Shown here: one piece after another, positions 22,621-52,191 of the stretch
How positions within the stretch are numbered: the stretch's first letter is position 1
Layout: every line of letters starts with the position of its first letter
NCBI GenBank assembly: GCA_001512555.1
Contig: LFSK01000132.1
Coordinates: 1-59,862 of the forward strand
Length of the DNA: 59,862 nucleotides
Direction of reading: 5' to 3'
Origin: Clostridiaceae bacterium DTU059
Lineage (GTDB): Bacteria > Bacillota > Clostridia > DSM-8532
Translations under genes and position numbers: made by a program
The notes under the pieces: generated by a model
The model's database searches: none
What the model was told of the DNA's origin: nothing
What the model saw: only the letters and a program-made list of their open reading frames with translations

Positions 22621-22650
22621 TTGTCTGAGGTTCCTGTTGAATATTATAAT
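22621..22650 (+). promoter_or_regulatory. Candidate vegetative promoter of the sigma-fusion gene
   Basis: TTGTCT (22621-22626) and TATAAT (22645-22650) with an 18-bp spacer. It would give a leader of about 170 nt. No ECF-type promoter was found upstream of this gene. The rest of 22383-22825 contains no supported gene. Confidence 0.4.
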
Positions 22651-22825
22651 GGAGTTGTGGCAATAAATTTGGACAGTATGTTGAGGTCTGCCAAGCATTT
22701 CTTTTGTTATTGCATCACTGCCAAAGGGCCTGAACACTCCCATGGGAAGCAATACTCCAACATACGGTATTGCTTTCAGTTTAGCAGTAGCTGCAACCAC
22801 CAACATGAATAAGGAGTATGATAAG

Positions 22826-25800
22826 ATGAACAGTGACAGGCTGCTTGTGGAAAAAGTGCTTGAGGGTGATGCCCGGGCCTTTGAAGAGCTGATAACATCA
22901 TATTATCCCGGACTGTACGGGTTCCTGATAAAAATGGGAATCCCTGCTTCCCAAACCCGGGATCTTGCGCAGGATATTTTTCTTAACACTTTTCGCAGCC
23001 TGTATCGGTACAATGACCGGTGGCCGTTTTCCACCTGGTTCTACAAGATGGCTGCCGGCATGGTCAGAAGTTATAAGCGCATACACCCCCAGCCTCTGGT
23101 ATCTCACCCCGATATCCCCGAATTCCTTCTCAGGCAGGAAAGAGATCTGGGTGAAGACCAATCTTTAAATGCCCTTCTCGACCCCCTCCACGATGAGGTG
23201 CGCTCCATGTTCATCCTGCATTACTACAACCGACTATCACTCCGGGAAGTTGGCCGGATATTTGGTCTTTCAGTTAGCTCTGTCAGGATTAGAATGGTCC
23301 GTGCTCGGGAATTCCTGATTGAACAGGTTCTGGCAACAGAAAGCCGGCACCCTGGGTCTTTTGGCCAACTCATAAGAAAAATAAAGGGAGAGGTTTCCTG
23401 CGGTGCTGTGCCTGTGGATTCAATCATGAGGATAATCGGGAATGAAGCCGACCACAGGCCCGGCTTTTGGAGGCTCGCCGCCAGCCCCAACTTTCTGCGG
23501 AAGATATGGCTCTTTGTGGTTCCCGCAACTCTTGGGATACTTCTCATCTGCCTGTTGTGTGTCCAGGATGTTTCAAAACCCTTTTGGGGCTCGGTAATGA
23601 CCATCTTCGACAATCAGGAAGAGCCGGCCAACGCAGACCTGACCAATGAAAGCACCGGCGTGGCCTTTACATTCACAGCCGTATCAGGCCTTCTGTCGGG
23701 CGACGAACTGGTTGAAAAACTCAATGAGATGGGCGATCCTTCCTGGAAAGTACTTCACGCCAATGAAACTCAGGTTATAATCGGGAACAGCCATATCATA
23801 GCCCGCTATGGAAGCGGTGAGTTACACCAGTTGATTGACCTGAGCAGCTTTGCTCTTAAAAACTCCCATGATTCCTTTGAAGCCGAATTCAGCTTTTCCC
23901 CGACGGGAGAGTTCATGGTTGCCGGAAGTCGTGTAACTGATGGGGATGATTCCACCGGCAATGGTGTATATCTTTTCAATACAACGGACGGAGGGTATTA
24001 TCAGCTATCCCCGCTGAGCATGGAACAGGTGGTTCATGCCTGGTCCCCCAGCGGCAATTATCTAGCATATGCCACCAGAAACAGTCCTGGTTCCATCTAT
24101 CTGCTGGACATGCAGAACCTGTTGTTTGAGGAACTGGAAGCAGATGTTCCGGTCAGAAACCTCTATGTCTCTAACAACGGCGGAGTAGGCGTCTTTTCGG
24201 GGGATATAGCGATGACAGCTTTTGCGGGTGACTCCGCATGGAAAACCGAAATCATACAGCACGAGCCCTTTTATATCAACCCTGATTCAGGTACGGTCTG
24301 GTATATCTTAAACGGCGTGATCATGAAGCATGTCATGGGAAATGACCAGGATACTCCCATCACTCCAGACCAGGAAGCCGGAAATCCTGGTATGCAGGAC
24401 ACATATATCACCGATTACCGGCTTATGGGCGATCATCTTGTTTTCAGAATGAGGAACGGGAACTCCGGAACTCTGAATATGCGGACTGGAAAGCTCAGTG
24501 TTTTCCACTCCAGCAGGGAAATGAAATCGGATCAACTGCCCTGGTGCCGCTCCACACCATCGGGGGCCCGGGTGATGATCGATAATGAAGGCTCATTCCT
24601 GATCGTTTCAGAAAGCAGCGTTACCACACCCCACATACCGGGATACAGCACATTATCTCCACGCCACACAAACTGGGTCAACGAAGAAAAAATTGCTTAT
24701 GTTCGCATGGTTAACGAAAAGGAACCCCAGACAGGAGAACTGTCCATTTATACCATAAATGTTCTGACTGGCGAGGTAACTGAGATCTATCGTTCTGTGG
24801 ATAAAGAGCCTGTTTTAAACACTGATGTACCCGGTTCCTCAGGAAGCATTCCCCCCGTTCAAAGCGCTCCACAGGAAGATGATAAAATATATGAGACAGA
24901 TAAGGCCACGGGAAGCCGGGTGGAGTCATTTGTTGTAAAAACCTGCAAGGTAAAGAGCGGCCCCGGTGACGGTTATGCTGACATTGGTGAAATCAAGGAA
25001 AACGAGGTCATCATCTATAACAACAGGGTGGTTAACGGCTGGTGCCTGGCCCAGAAGGTATCAGGTATGCTGAACTATTACGATACGCGCAACCAATTCT
25101 GGATCCGTGCCGAAAACATACACTTCTATGACCGTAACAGCCTGCCCGCCGGAATCATAACTGCCGACAAAGTCATGCTGGCAAAGACATCCCTGAACAG
25201 GGGCAATCTGATCCGGATAATAGTTAAGGGAGAGCAGAAGAGCTATGTGATTGCCGACACCATCGACACCAAGTTTGGTATAACGGGCTGGATCAGCAAT
25301 GATAGCTTCACCCGTGATTTAAACGGTGTCTACTTCAACCAGGCTTATTTAAAGAGCAGGAGCATTGTTTACAGCAAACCCGATCCGAGTTCCGAACCCG
25401 TATCGGATTTCACCCGGTATATGGCCGACATCGGGACTGACGCTTTTGTTAACCTGACGGGGCAGGCCGAGAATGGATTCTTATACGTCAAACATACAGC
25501 AGATATGGCCGGTTGGGTGAGGGAGCGGGATATATATCTTCCAGGTGGTAGCAGCATGCCAGCCCCGGTGGAATCGAAGGATCTTGATCTCAATGGCGAC
25601 GGTATTGCAGATAGGATCAGTTTCACCACCGATGGAAAGAGATACACCCTGACCGTAAACCAAAGCAGGATGGATGGCCACGGATCCGGTGTACAGTCTG
25701 GGTATAAGATTATTGATGTCGACCTGTCGGATACCTATTATGAAATAGTTGTTGAGGAACATGGCTCCGGCAGTGACTTTATGAGCACCTTCTACTATTA

Positions 25801-26251
25801 TGACGGGCAGAGACTGATCAACATGGGCAAGGTGGAGGGTCTGTGCGGGAATACGGATGCCGTAAAGGGTGACGGCATCATACGTTCCAGAACCCGTGGA
25901 AACGTCCTTGAAACATGGTTCTTTATCAAGGAATACCGTCTCAACTCACAGCATAAACTGGTTGGAACGCCCAGTGCCTTTTATGAGAAAATTGGGTACA
26001 GGAATGCAAACACCCTAAAGCTAAGAATTGAGTCCCTGCCCTTTGTCATATCCCCAGGCAGCAATGAAGTCTCCTTTGTGCTGAACCGTAATGAAAATGT
26101 GCGCTTTGTAGGCAGCGACAACCAGAGATGGTGTCTGTTCCAGACAGACGATGGCCGCAACGGCTGGCTGGAGGTGCGTGACTACCTGTACATCGGGGGT
26201 ACCGGGCTTGCCGCATGGGATGTCTTCGATGGCTTGAACATGGCTGATTAG
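22826..26251 (+). CDS. Membrane-tethered ECF sigma factor fused to a beta-propeller/SH3-like sensor
   Basis: One uninterrupted frame encodes 1141 residues. Residues 1-90 match sigma-70 region 2 (ARAFEELITSYYPGLYGF, then RDLAQDIFLNTFRSLY, then FSTWFYKMA) and 113-168 region 4 (LHYYNRLSLREVGRIFGLSV, SSVRIRMVRAREFL), i.e. an ECF sigma core. About residues 227-246 form one hydrophobic span (WLFVVPATLGILLICLLC). The remaining ~890 residues would lie outside: a repeat region with WSPSGNYLAYATR-type blades (about 340-660, WD40/TolB-like), a Pro-rich linker (about 665-695), SH3-like modules (about 700-760 and 850-905), a calcium-loop-like DLDLNGDGIAD (about 917-927) and a final SH3-like module (about 1085-1125). 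The start ATG has AAGGAG 9 nt upstream; earlier in-frame ATGs lack one. Release of the sigma part by proteolysis, or direct control while tethered, is an inference. A terminator follows. Confidence 0.82.
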   Translation: MNSDRLLVEKVLEGDARAFEELITSYYPGLYGFLIKMGIPASQTRDLAQDIFLNTFRSLYRYNDRWPFSTWFYKMAAGMVRSYKRIHPQPLVSHPDIPEFLLRQERDLGEDQSLNALLDPLHDEVRSMFILHYYNRLSLREVGRIFGLSVSSVRIRMVRAREFLIEQVLATESRHPGSFGQLIRKIKGEVSCGAVPVDSIMRIIGNEADHRPGFWRLAASPNFLRKIWLFVVPATLGILLICLLCVQDVSKPFWGSVMTIFDNQEEPANADLTNESTGVAFTFTAVSGLLSGDELVEKLNEMGDPSWKVLHANETQVIIGNSHIIARYGSGELHQLIDLSSFALKNSHDSFEAEFSFSPTGEFMVAGSRVTDGDDSTGNGVYLFNTTDGGYYQLSPLSMEQVVHAWSPSGNYLAYATRNSPGSIYLLDMQNLLFEELEADVPVRNLYVSNNGGVGVFSGDIAMTAFAGDSAWKTEIIQHEPFYINPDSGTVWYILNGVIMKHVMGNDQDTPITPDQEAGNPGMQDTYITDYRLMGDHLVFRMRNGNSGTLNMRTGKLSVFHSSREMKSDQLPWCRSTPSGARVMIDNEGSFLIVSESSVTTPHIPGYSTLSPRHTNWVNEEKIAYVRMVNEKEPQTGELSIYTINVLTGEVTEIYRSVDKEPVLNTDVPGSSGSIPPVQSAPQEDDKIYETDKATGSRVESFVVKTCKVKSGPGDGYADIGEIKENEVIIYNNRVVNGWCLAQKVSGMLNYYDTRNQFWIRAENIHFYDRNSLPAGIITADKVMLAKTSLNRGNLIRIIVKGEQKSYVIADTIDTKFGITGWISNDSFTRDLNGVYFNQAYLKSRSIVYSKPDPSSEPVSDFTRYMADIGTDAFVNLTGQAENGFLYVKHTADMAGWVRERDIYLPGGSSMPAPVESKDLDLNGDGIADRISFTTDGKRYTLTVNQSRMDGHGSGVQSGYKIIDVDLSDTYYEIVVEEHGSGSDFMSTFYYYDGQRLINMGKVEGLCGNTDAVKGDGIIRSRTRGNVLETWFFIKEYRLNSQHKLVGTPSAFYEKIGYRNANTLKLRIESLPFVISPGSNEVSFVLNRNENVRFVGSDNQRWCLFQTDDGRNGWLEVRDYLYIGGTGLAAWDVFDGLNMAD

Positions 26252-26261
26252 AAGAATACCG

Positions 26262-26294
26262 GGACGATTCCCTACCAGGGGATCGTCCTTTTAT
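26262..26294 (+). terminator. Terminator after the sigma-fusion gene
   Basis: GGACGATTCCC (26262-26272) pairs with GGGGATCGTCC (26278-26288, one G-T wobble) around a 5-nt loop, followed by TTTTATT. Confidence 0.82.
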
Positions 26295-26394: not shown

Positions 26395-26419
26395 AAACCA
26401 AATGATCCCATATGCCGTC
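26395..26419 (+). promoter_or_regulatory. Candidate ECF-type promoter upstream of the alpha-2-macroglobulin gene
   Basis: An AAAC motif (26395-26398) and CGTC (26416-26419) are separated by 17 bp. This resembles the AAC...CGTC promoter pattern used by several ECF sigma factors (for example SigM-like). It lies about 50 bp upstream of the start codon. No convincing TTGACA/TATAAT pair was seen in this gap. The match is short and could be chance. Confidence 0.4.
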
Positions 26420-26467
26420 TAATTAATATGAGGTGTGCTTTAATAGATTCTTAGGAGGTAGAGTGTT

Positions 26468-51104: not shown

Positions 51105-51650
51105 TCAGCCCGATTGGCGTGCCGTTCTTCCTTTTACTAGCAGCAGAATGAAAGCTGCAACCAGCAAGGTTGTAGTCACCATGAATAAAGGCAACAGCCC
51201 CCGGGAGCTGGCCATGATATTGCCGAAGAGCCTGATCAATACGCTGGGGTCAATGCCGATTGCACTTAAAAAGTTATATAACACAACAGACAATGCTTTC
51301 AAAAGATTGGATGCCATCCCTGACAGCAGAGGCCGCAAAAAAGGACGGAAAATACTGTACAGGATGGCCGAAAGGATGATAGCAACCGCCAATCCCCGTT
51401 TTGCTTCCACGGTTCGGGCAGGAAGAATCCTCTCATTAGTGATACGGGACATCACCTTTTCCTTGAATCCATCAGGTATGGTTATGCTGGATACAGTATT
51501 GAGCTTCTCTTTCAATTCTCTCCATGATTCCAGCTTCCCGGCGCATGTTCGGCACTTCCTGCAATGGGCTTGAAGCCTTGCAAGGGAGCCTGGATCCAGC
51601 GAGTCTTCGAGAAACCTGTTAAAACTTTTAGAGGTCATACATCTCTTCAT
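51105..51650 (-). CDS. Zinc-finger anti-sigma factor, membrane protein
   Basis: The 181-residue protein has the zinc-binding anti-sigma motif H29-x3-C33-x2-C36 (LQAHCRKCRTCAGK) and then three hydrophobic segments (about 88-108, 115-135 and 155-172). It starts about 4 bp after the sigma factor gene. It should hold the neighbouring ECF sigma at the membrane until a signal breaks the complex; the signal is unknown. Confidence 0.85.
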   Translation of the reverse strand: MKRCMTSKSFNRFLEDSLDPGSLARLQAHCRKCRTCAGKLESWRELKEKLNTVSSITIPDGFKEKVMSRITNERILPARTVEAKRGLAVAIILSAILYSIFRPFLRPLLSGMASNLLKALSVVLYNFLSAIGIDPSVLIRLFGNIMASSRGLLPLFMVTTTLLVAAFILLLVKGRTARQSG

Positions 51651-51654
51651 TCCG

Positions 51655-52191
51655 TCAATCCTCCATCGCCTGCCTCAGCATCTTTCTCGCCCTGTATATC
51701 CGGTTTTTTACTATGCTCATGGGAACATCCAAATATTCGGCAATCTCATCATATTTCATTCCCGACAGATGGTAGAGCATCAAGGGTTGTTTATACTTGG
51801 GATCAAGGCCGTTTATGAGGGTTTCCAGCCTGTTTTTTGTTTCCCTGCCTATCACCTGCTGTTCGGGAGTATCCTCAGGATCTGTCACCTCAAAGGCATC
51901 GTCTATGGGACACAAATCCTTTCTTTTTCTTAAAAGTTCGGTGCAGGTATTGGTTGTAATGCGGGCAATCCAGGTTGAAAACTTGTATTCCGGATTATAT
52001 GAGGCCAGATGCTTATAGGCTTTTACAAAGGCTTCCTGAGAGGCATCCTCGGCAAGCTGCGGATCCTTCAAATAAGTCCAGGCCAATGAATAAACAAGCT
52101 TTTGGTATCGGTCAACCAATTTTTCAAAATATTCAGTCCTACCCTGAAGACAGAGCCTGACTATCTCATAATCCTGCATATCCTTTTCCAT
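51655..52191 (-). CDS. ECF RNA polymerase sigma factor (SigW-like)
   Basis: The 178-residue protein has region 2 (YFEKLVDRYQKLVYSLAWTY, EDASQEAFVKAYKHL, FSTWIARITTN) and region 4 (LMLYHLSGMKYDEIAEYLDV, VKNRIYRARKMLRQ). It is paired with the downstream zinc-finger anti-sigma gene (4-bp gap). I could not identify an autoregulated ECF promoter in the 219-bp upstream gap; a TATAAT (52241-52246 region on the minus strand) lies there but without a clear -35. Confidence 0.92.
   Translation of the reverse strand: MEKDMQDYEIVRLCLQGRTEYFEKLVDRYQKLVYSLAWTYLKDPQLAEDASQEAFVKAYKHLASYNPEYKFSTWIARITTNTCTELLRKRKDLCPIDDAFEVTDPEDTPEQQVIGRETKNRLETLINGLDPKYKQPLMLYHLSGMKYDEIAEYLDVPMSIVKNRIYRARKMLRQAMED

Follow-up and report, generated by a model that had tools for sequence, protein, structure and literature searches.

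We analyzed a 59,862-nucleotide contig of Clostridiaceae bacterium DTU059 (LFSK01000132.1, assembly GCA_001512555.1, positions 1 to 59,862 of the forward strand), hereafter the window, which encodes an extracytoplasmic function (ECF) sigma factor fused to a membrane sensor. The gene occupies window positions 22826-26251 (+) as a single stop-free frame of 1141 residues. ECF signaling is usually described as a sigma factor plus a separate anti-sigma factor. By sequence comparison, we show here the architecture and conservation of the fused protein, its origin from such a pair and the sharing of its modules with other surface proteins. The gene and its parts are as follows.

22826..26251, + strand: gene for the fused ECF sigma factor and membrane sensor, 1141 residues (translation, orthologues, ratio of nonsynonymous to synonymous substitutions (dN/dS), hydropathy)
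22889..23080, + strand: sigma region 2, residues 22-85 (Pfam Sigma70_r2, 29.4 bits, cut-off 24; fold match to E. coli sigmaE and SigW)
23057..23059, + strand: codon of residue 78, Gly for the usual Asn (alignment with separate ECF sigma factors)
23162..23317, + strand: sigma region 4, residues 113-164 (Pfam Sigma70_r4_2, 36 bits, cut-off 25.7)
23333..23503, + strand: predicted cytoplasmic stem, residues 170-226 (sequence comparison; predicted local distance difference test (pLDDT) <50 at 188-212)
23504..23560, + strand: single membrane span, residues 227-245 (mean hydropathy 2.67; next best 1.16)
23699..24805, + strand: predicted extracytoplasmic beta-propeller, residues ~292-660 (AlphaFold2 pLDDT mostly 85-95; VIA-align Z 11.8-13.9)
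24806..24919, + strand: variable Pro/Ser-rich linker, residues 661-698 (orthologue alignment, model)
24923..25549, + strand: SH3-like modules, residues ~700-908 (homology to the outer part of BlaR1-like M56 proteins)
25580..26248, + strand: C-terminal module, residues 919-1141; calcium-type loop at 25580-25612, end SH3_3-like (sequence homology)

The original prediction, made from the sequence letters, had described an unbroken frame with sigma regions 2 and 4, one hydrophobic span after about residue 227, beta-propeller-like repeats, a Pro-rich linker, SH3-like modules and a calcium-loop-like DLDLNGDGIAD, and this description was confirmed. Translation gave no internal stop, both sigma regions scored above the Pfam curated cut-offs, and the fused sigma also passed TIGR02937, the general ECF model of NCBIfam. 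Hydropathy singled out residues 227-245. AlphaFold2 modeling of the first 690 residues with 19 sequences (mean pLDDT 76) produced a sigma part whose fold matches E. coli sigmaE, SigW and AlgU, a stem without confident docking onto the sigma part, and a propeller after the span, where residues ~295-658 match known beta-propellers. Pfam placed no WD40 family above cut-off on this region, though the modeled fold is a propeller, and the top Foldseek matches were eukaryotic WD40 proteins, which are uninformative on function. The Pro-rich linker is present but short and variable, and the SH3-like modules are matched by SH3_3 at two places, both below the Pfam cut-off of 27 (26.2 bits at 1081-1116 and 21.6 bits at ~708-742). 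The calcium-type loop lies at residues 919-929, and D921, N923, G924, D925, G926 and D929 are invariant across the five orthologues. The AlphaFold2 model of the C-terminal 458 residues is weak (pLDDT 49.7), and when the C-terminal half was searched by sequence against solved structures, the bacterial SH3 domain 2krs was the only match, a weak one (E 0.0017). The predicted membrane topology leaves an extracytoplasmic part of ~890 residues.

The start codon was taken as ATG 22826, because a ribosome site, AAGGAG, lies 9 nt 5' of it and because 2/4 orthologues have no earlier start in the frame. A start at 22742, where the frame begins in the list of open reading frames, was rejected, as it is lacking in 2/4 orthologues.

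The host belongs to a genus of uncultured Clostridia, and each of the four further species sequenced from it carries a full-length orthologue at the same locus (92, 71, 69 and 66% identity), none with an inner stop; two of these genomes correspond to deposited Clostridiaceae metagenome-assembled genomes (JAAYFY010000037 and JAAYTP010000022). The original proposal that sensing and transcription control are merged in one polypeptide is supported, and other species carry homologues of the same fused plan. The dN/dS ratio is ~0.2 for the whole gene, 0.11-0.33 for the sigma part and 0.2-0.5 in the join and span (residues 170-260), demonstrating purifying selection throughout the fused gene, join included. 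Outside the genus, we found no fusion of this kind in 56 further relatives, in 391 genomes sampled across the class or in 398 sampled across the phylum. When the class was searched with the sigma part alone, frames outside the genus reached at most ~260 residues among the matches listed. A 518-residue ECF frame in genome G045 was considered as the same fusion and rejected, since its extension differs.

The nearest relatives of the two halves turned out to be neighboring genes. Among the 391 genomes, and with the outer domain left out of the search, the top sigma matches outside the genus were in G115 (G115:C19, 144.7 bits) and G347 (G347:C1, 125 bits). Both sigma genes lie directly upstream of genes for 535- and 554-residue proteins, respectively, that consist of a zinc-finger head, stem, span and propeller, and both pairs belong to another family than the host of the fused gene. 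The zf-HC2 domain of these anti-sigma proteins scores above cut-off in G115 and below it in G347. A profile of the fused outer part matched them across stem, span and propeller with E values of 5.6e-40 and 1.8e-23, respectively. In the G115 protein, the match begins at residue 49, just past the zinc finger at 19-40. The stem of the fused protein is homologous, from residue ~179, to the stem that follows the zinc finger in separate anti-sigma proteins (LLRYLKEDN..IPVNSIVSQI versus LIRKIKGEV..VPVDSIMRII in the match with G115). The HxxxCxxC zinc-binding head of zinc-binding anti-sigma (ZAS) factors is absent from the fused protein: Pfam zf-HC2 gave no match, and the motif is missing from the stem in 5/5 orthologues.

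A maximum-likelihood tree of 54 ECF domains placed the fused sigmas in one clade (100/100) that is sister to the G115 and G347 sigmas (99/92). Removal of five long rows left the grouping of the fused sigmas with G115/G347 unchanged, and a tree that forced the fused sigmas together with five ECF sigmas of their own family was rejected (approximately unbiased test, p-AU 0.006). Because the sister sigmas adjoin ZAS proteins that match only past the zinc finger, we conclude from these comparisons that a cognate ECF gene and its downstream anti-sigma gene fused, with loss of the zinc-binding head and of the end of the sigma. The stem, span and propeller sensor were retained, and the SH3-like and C-terminal modules were added. 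Neither this origin nor the absence of the promoter-opening Asn described below was part of the original prediction. Possibly another headless relative is a propeller protein with one span and no zinc-finger head, encoded ~1.5 kb from an ECF gene in another genome (G125:C3; L063 / L072).

The outer modules also occur on proteins of other kinds. Residues ~700-908 are homologous to the outer region of BlaR1-like M56 proteins from G205 (G205:C13; L058, L068). Residues 919-1141 match the ends of M56 proteins in G068 (G068:C1, L060) and G236; they also match SLH-domain proteins (G036, G074 and G101) and lipoproteins, for example in G389 and G396. The propeller likewise stands alone in lipoproteins. 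The presence of the same outer modules on ZAS anti-sigma proteins and BlaR1-type M56 proteins strengthens the earlier proposal that the outer region is a sensor, and supports a role at the cell surface while naming no ligand. Related modules on anti-sigma proteins, M56 sensors and the fused sigma also suggest that one pool of sensor modules serves several Gram-positive signaling routes. Three proteins with SLH-type repeats (L064, L065 and L066) bear the C-terminal module of the fused sigma.

We propose, as the probable interpretation, that this is a fusion-born ECF sigma factor, tethered to the membrane and equipped with its own sensor, which is freed by proteolysis upon an outside signal. The resting state, cleavage and signal that we infer would operate as follows. 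Under resting conditions, the span would keep the sigma at the membrane, inactive or short-lived. An outside signal (the state of the cell wall or surface, or a ligand bound by the propeller or by the SH3-like modules) would permit a first cut on the outer side. A protease of the RseP/RasP type would then cut within the span or close to it, releasing a fragment of ~220-235 residues that would join RNA polymerase. The genome encodes an RseP-like M50 protease (G000:C35) and two PrsW-like proteins, and IutY, with its order of sigma, single span and periplasmic domain, is cut by Prc and RseP and is constitutively active when truncated (PMC5411451). Release by proteolysis is therefore plausible by analogy and is the route we favor. 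The only zf-HC2 match of the genome adjoins another ECF gene, so that no unpaired ZAS anti-sigma was found to replace the lost head.

Several observations weigh against this proposal. We identified neither a site-1 protease nor a cut site. Because the merger removed the restraining head, control of the off state must differ from the usual one, and what keeps the sigma off is not evident. A look at the sequence 5' of the fused gene revealed no ECF-type promoter, and the clade of fused sigmas sits on a long stem branch (1.22 changes per column). The five fused proteins have G, S, G, G and D, respectively, at residue 78, a site at which 46/47 separate ECF sigmas (49/50 by another count) have Asn. 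Through the motif W-x-x-x-I-x-x-N, this residue can be equated with N88 of M. tuberculosis sigmaH, which is described as a promoter-opening wedge and where the N88A substitution impairs transcription (PMC6411747).

Since this near-invariant promoter-opening Asn of region 2.3 is replaced in all five species, the activity of the fused sigma may be unusual and its promoter requirement changed; loss of sigma function is possible but less likely. It is conceivable, though rather unlikely, that a sigma held by its own sensor without an anti-sigma domain, and deprived of the opening residue, works in a new mode, either unreleased at the membrane or solely at promoters for which the residue is dispensable.

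The tethered sigma might also act at the membrane uncleaved, for which CadC and ToxR offer a comparison: the signal would alter the outer domain, and the sigma would recruit RNA polymerase to promoters there. With the head lost, no degradation would be needed for release, and one span with a long stem would suit such action. However, M50 and PrsW-like proteases are encoded, IutY as a known single-span sigma hybrid needs RseP (PMC5411451), and a stem of ~57 residues would probably give an elongating polymerase little reach, and we regard this model as unlikely. We find it equally improbable that the sigma part no longer initiates alone and now plays a regulatory or structural role, such as sequestering RNA polymerase or competing at promoters. 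Replacement of the wedge Asn in 5/5 species and the long stem branch point in that direction, whereas the sigma part has remained under purifying selection and retains F52, the region 2.3 W and most positions of sigma4, and H or R stand at the wedge site in other ECF sigmas, which thus also lack the Asn (PMC6411747).

Fused sigma/sensor proteins are already known, namely IutY and members of ECF48, ECF52 and ECF53 (PMC8999054, PMC5826349). IutY of Pseudomonas putida, an ECF243 hybrid (PMC5411451, PMC8999054), resembles the fused protein in its plan, with a cytoplasmic ECF sigma at the N-terminus followed by one span and a regulatory domain outside, and in being a sigma/anti-sigma fusion. Its outer domain, however, is of the cell-surface signaling (CSS) anti-sigma type and receives the signal from an outer-membrane receptor, and its proteolytic activation has been shown, whereas here it is predicted. 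The outer part of the fused protein instead comprises propeller, SH3-like and C-terminal modules over ~890 residues; no FecR match was present among the Pfam and NCBIfam matches listed. The window contains spoIIR, and the host belongs to a spore-forming Clostridia lineage. ECF52 (SCO4117 of Streptomyces coelicolor, PMC5826349), ECF48 and ECF53 (PMC8999054) share the order of sigma, span, Pro-rich part and outer sensor-like domain, but they are actinobacterial and are described as keeping a ZAS-type zinc finger between sigma and span, which the fused protein lacks. Pfam gave no match in the fused protein to a carbohydrate-binding module, a trait of ECF52, in a C-terminal part whose model is weak. 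ECF57 (PMC8999054) has a WD40-like C-terminal extension and is thus alike in carrying a propeller-type domain, but a conserved Cys pair is said to link its sigma2 and sigma4, and the fused protein has no Cys in residues 1-170.

Canonical pairs of ECF sigma and ZAS anti-sigma (G115:C19 and G347:C1; compare SigW-RsiW) share the sigma clade and a homologous stem, span and propeller, but consist of two genes, keep the zinc-finger head and have no SH3-like or C-terminal modules. Sensor peptidases of the BlaR1/MecR1 M56 type have homologous outer SH3-like modules (G205:C13) or a homologous C-terminal module (G068:C1), while their inner part is an M56 metallopeptidase and not a sigma. Compared with the fused ECF groups described in the open-licence literature, the protein stands apart by the absence of the zinc finger, the Clostridia host and the separate relatives that reveal the origin; an ECF group for this architecture may already exist.

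With the fused form and its unfused relatives both in hand, it is apparent that the part that defines an anti-sigma factor is what vanished. Whether a sigma factor can be controlled by nothing more than tethering thereby becomes a testable question, and if such control holds, the plan could serve the building of single-protein sensors.

The regions that flank the gene contain four further elements.

22621..22650, + strand: housekeeping-type promoter TTGTCT-N18-TATAAT (conserved in five species)
22744..22777, + strand: putative hairpin in the 5' leader, preserved in part through paired changes (weak evidence)
26261..26289, + strand: intrinsic terminator of 13 pairs, 3' of the fused gene (similar sequence in G001 and G004)
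26396-26423, + strand: ECF-type promoter AACC-N15/16-CGTCTAAT before the A2M gene (all five species; also L136-L148)

The leader is ~170 nt long; covariation in the hairpin is weak overall, and a search of the leader against Rfam returned no family, with two matches at chance level. The separate sigma/anti-sigma pairs of G115 and G347 share an upstream GTTACT-N16-CGTAT, read by eye.

An A2M gene adjoins the fused gene in 5/5 species, and one reading is that the fused protein senses or controls the A2M system, with its sigma driving A2M. Adjacency and the ECF-type promoter before A2M would fit such a link, but we consider it very unlikely. In the window, A2M lies beyond the terminator; it is present in 30/32 genomes of the family, and the same promoter type precedes A2M in three sister-genus genomes in which no fusion was found. 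In addition, a family-wide ECF sigma (G000:C192:5132-5545; L004; L149, L150, L155-L158) has GAACC-N15/16-CGTC just before its own gene in 7/7 scored copies. Because the A2M promoter is also found where the fusion is lacking and is similar to the one that this ECF has before its own gene, A2M is better explained as a target of a sigma of the G000:C192 type, the best candidate on promoter sequence, than of the fused sigma.

The pattern AACC-N15/16-CGTCTAAT has 13 exact matches in the five genomes, against 2 for a reversed control pattern. The other matches precede genes for SLH-type proteins (5 species), a WalR-like regulator (2) and a serpin-like lipoprotein (1), and together these genes look like a small regulon of envelope proteins and protease inhibitors.

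That a sequencing or assembly error joined two genes can be practically dismissed: although the window genome is in 215 contigs and is probably a metagenome assembly, the same frame and join recur without an inner stop in four congeneric genomes at 66-92% identity, and purifying selection acts in the join.

Elsewhere in the window, positions 51655-52191 (-) encode another ECF sigma factor of 178 residues, followed by a gene for a 181-residue protein at 51105-51650 (-) that could be its anti-sigma factor.

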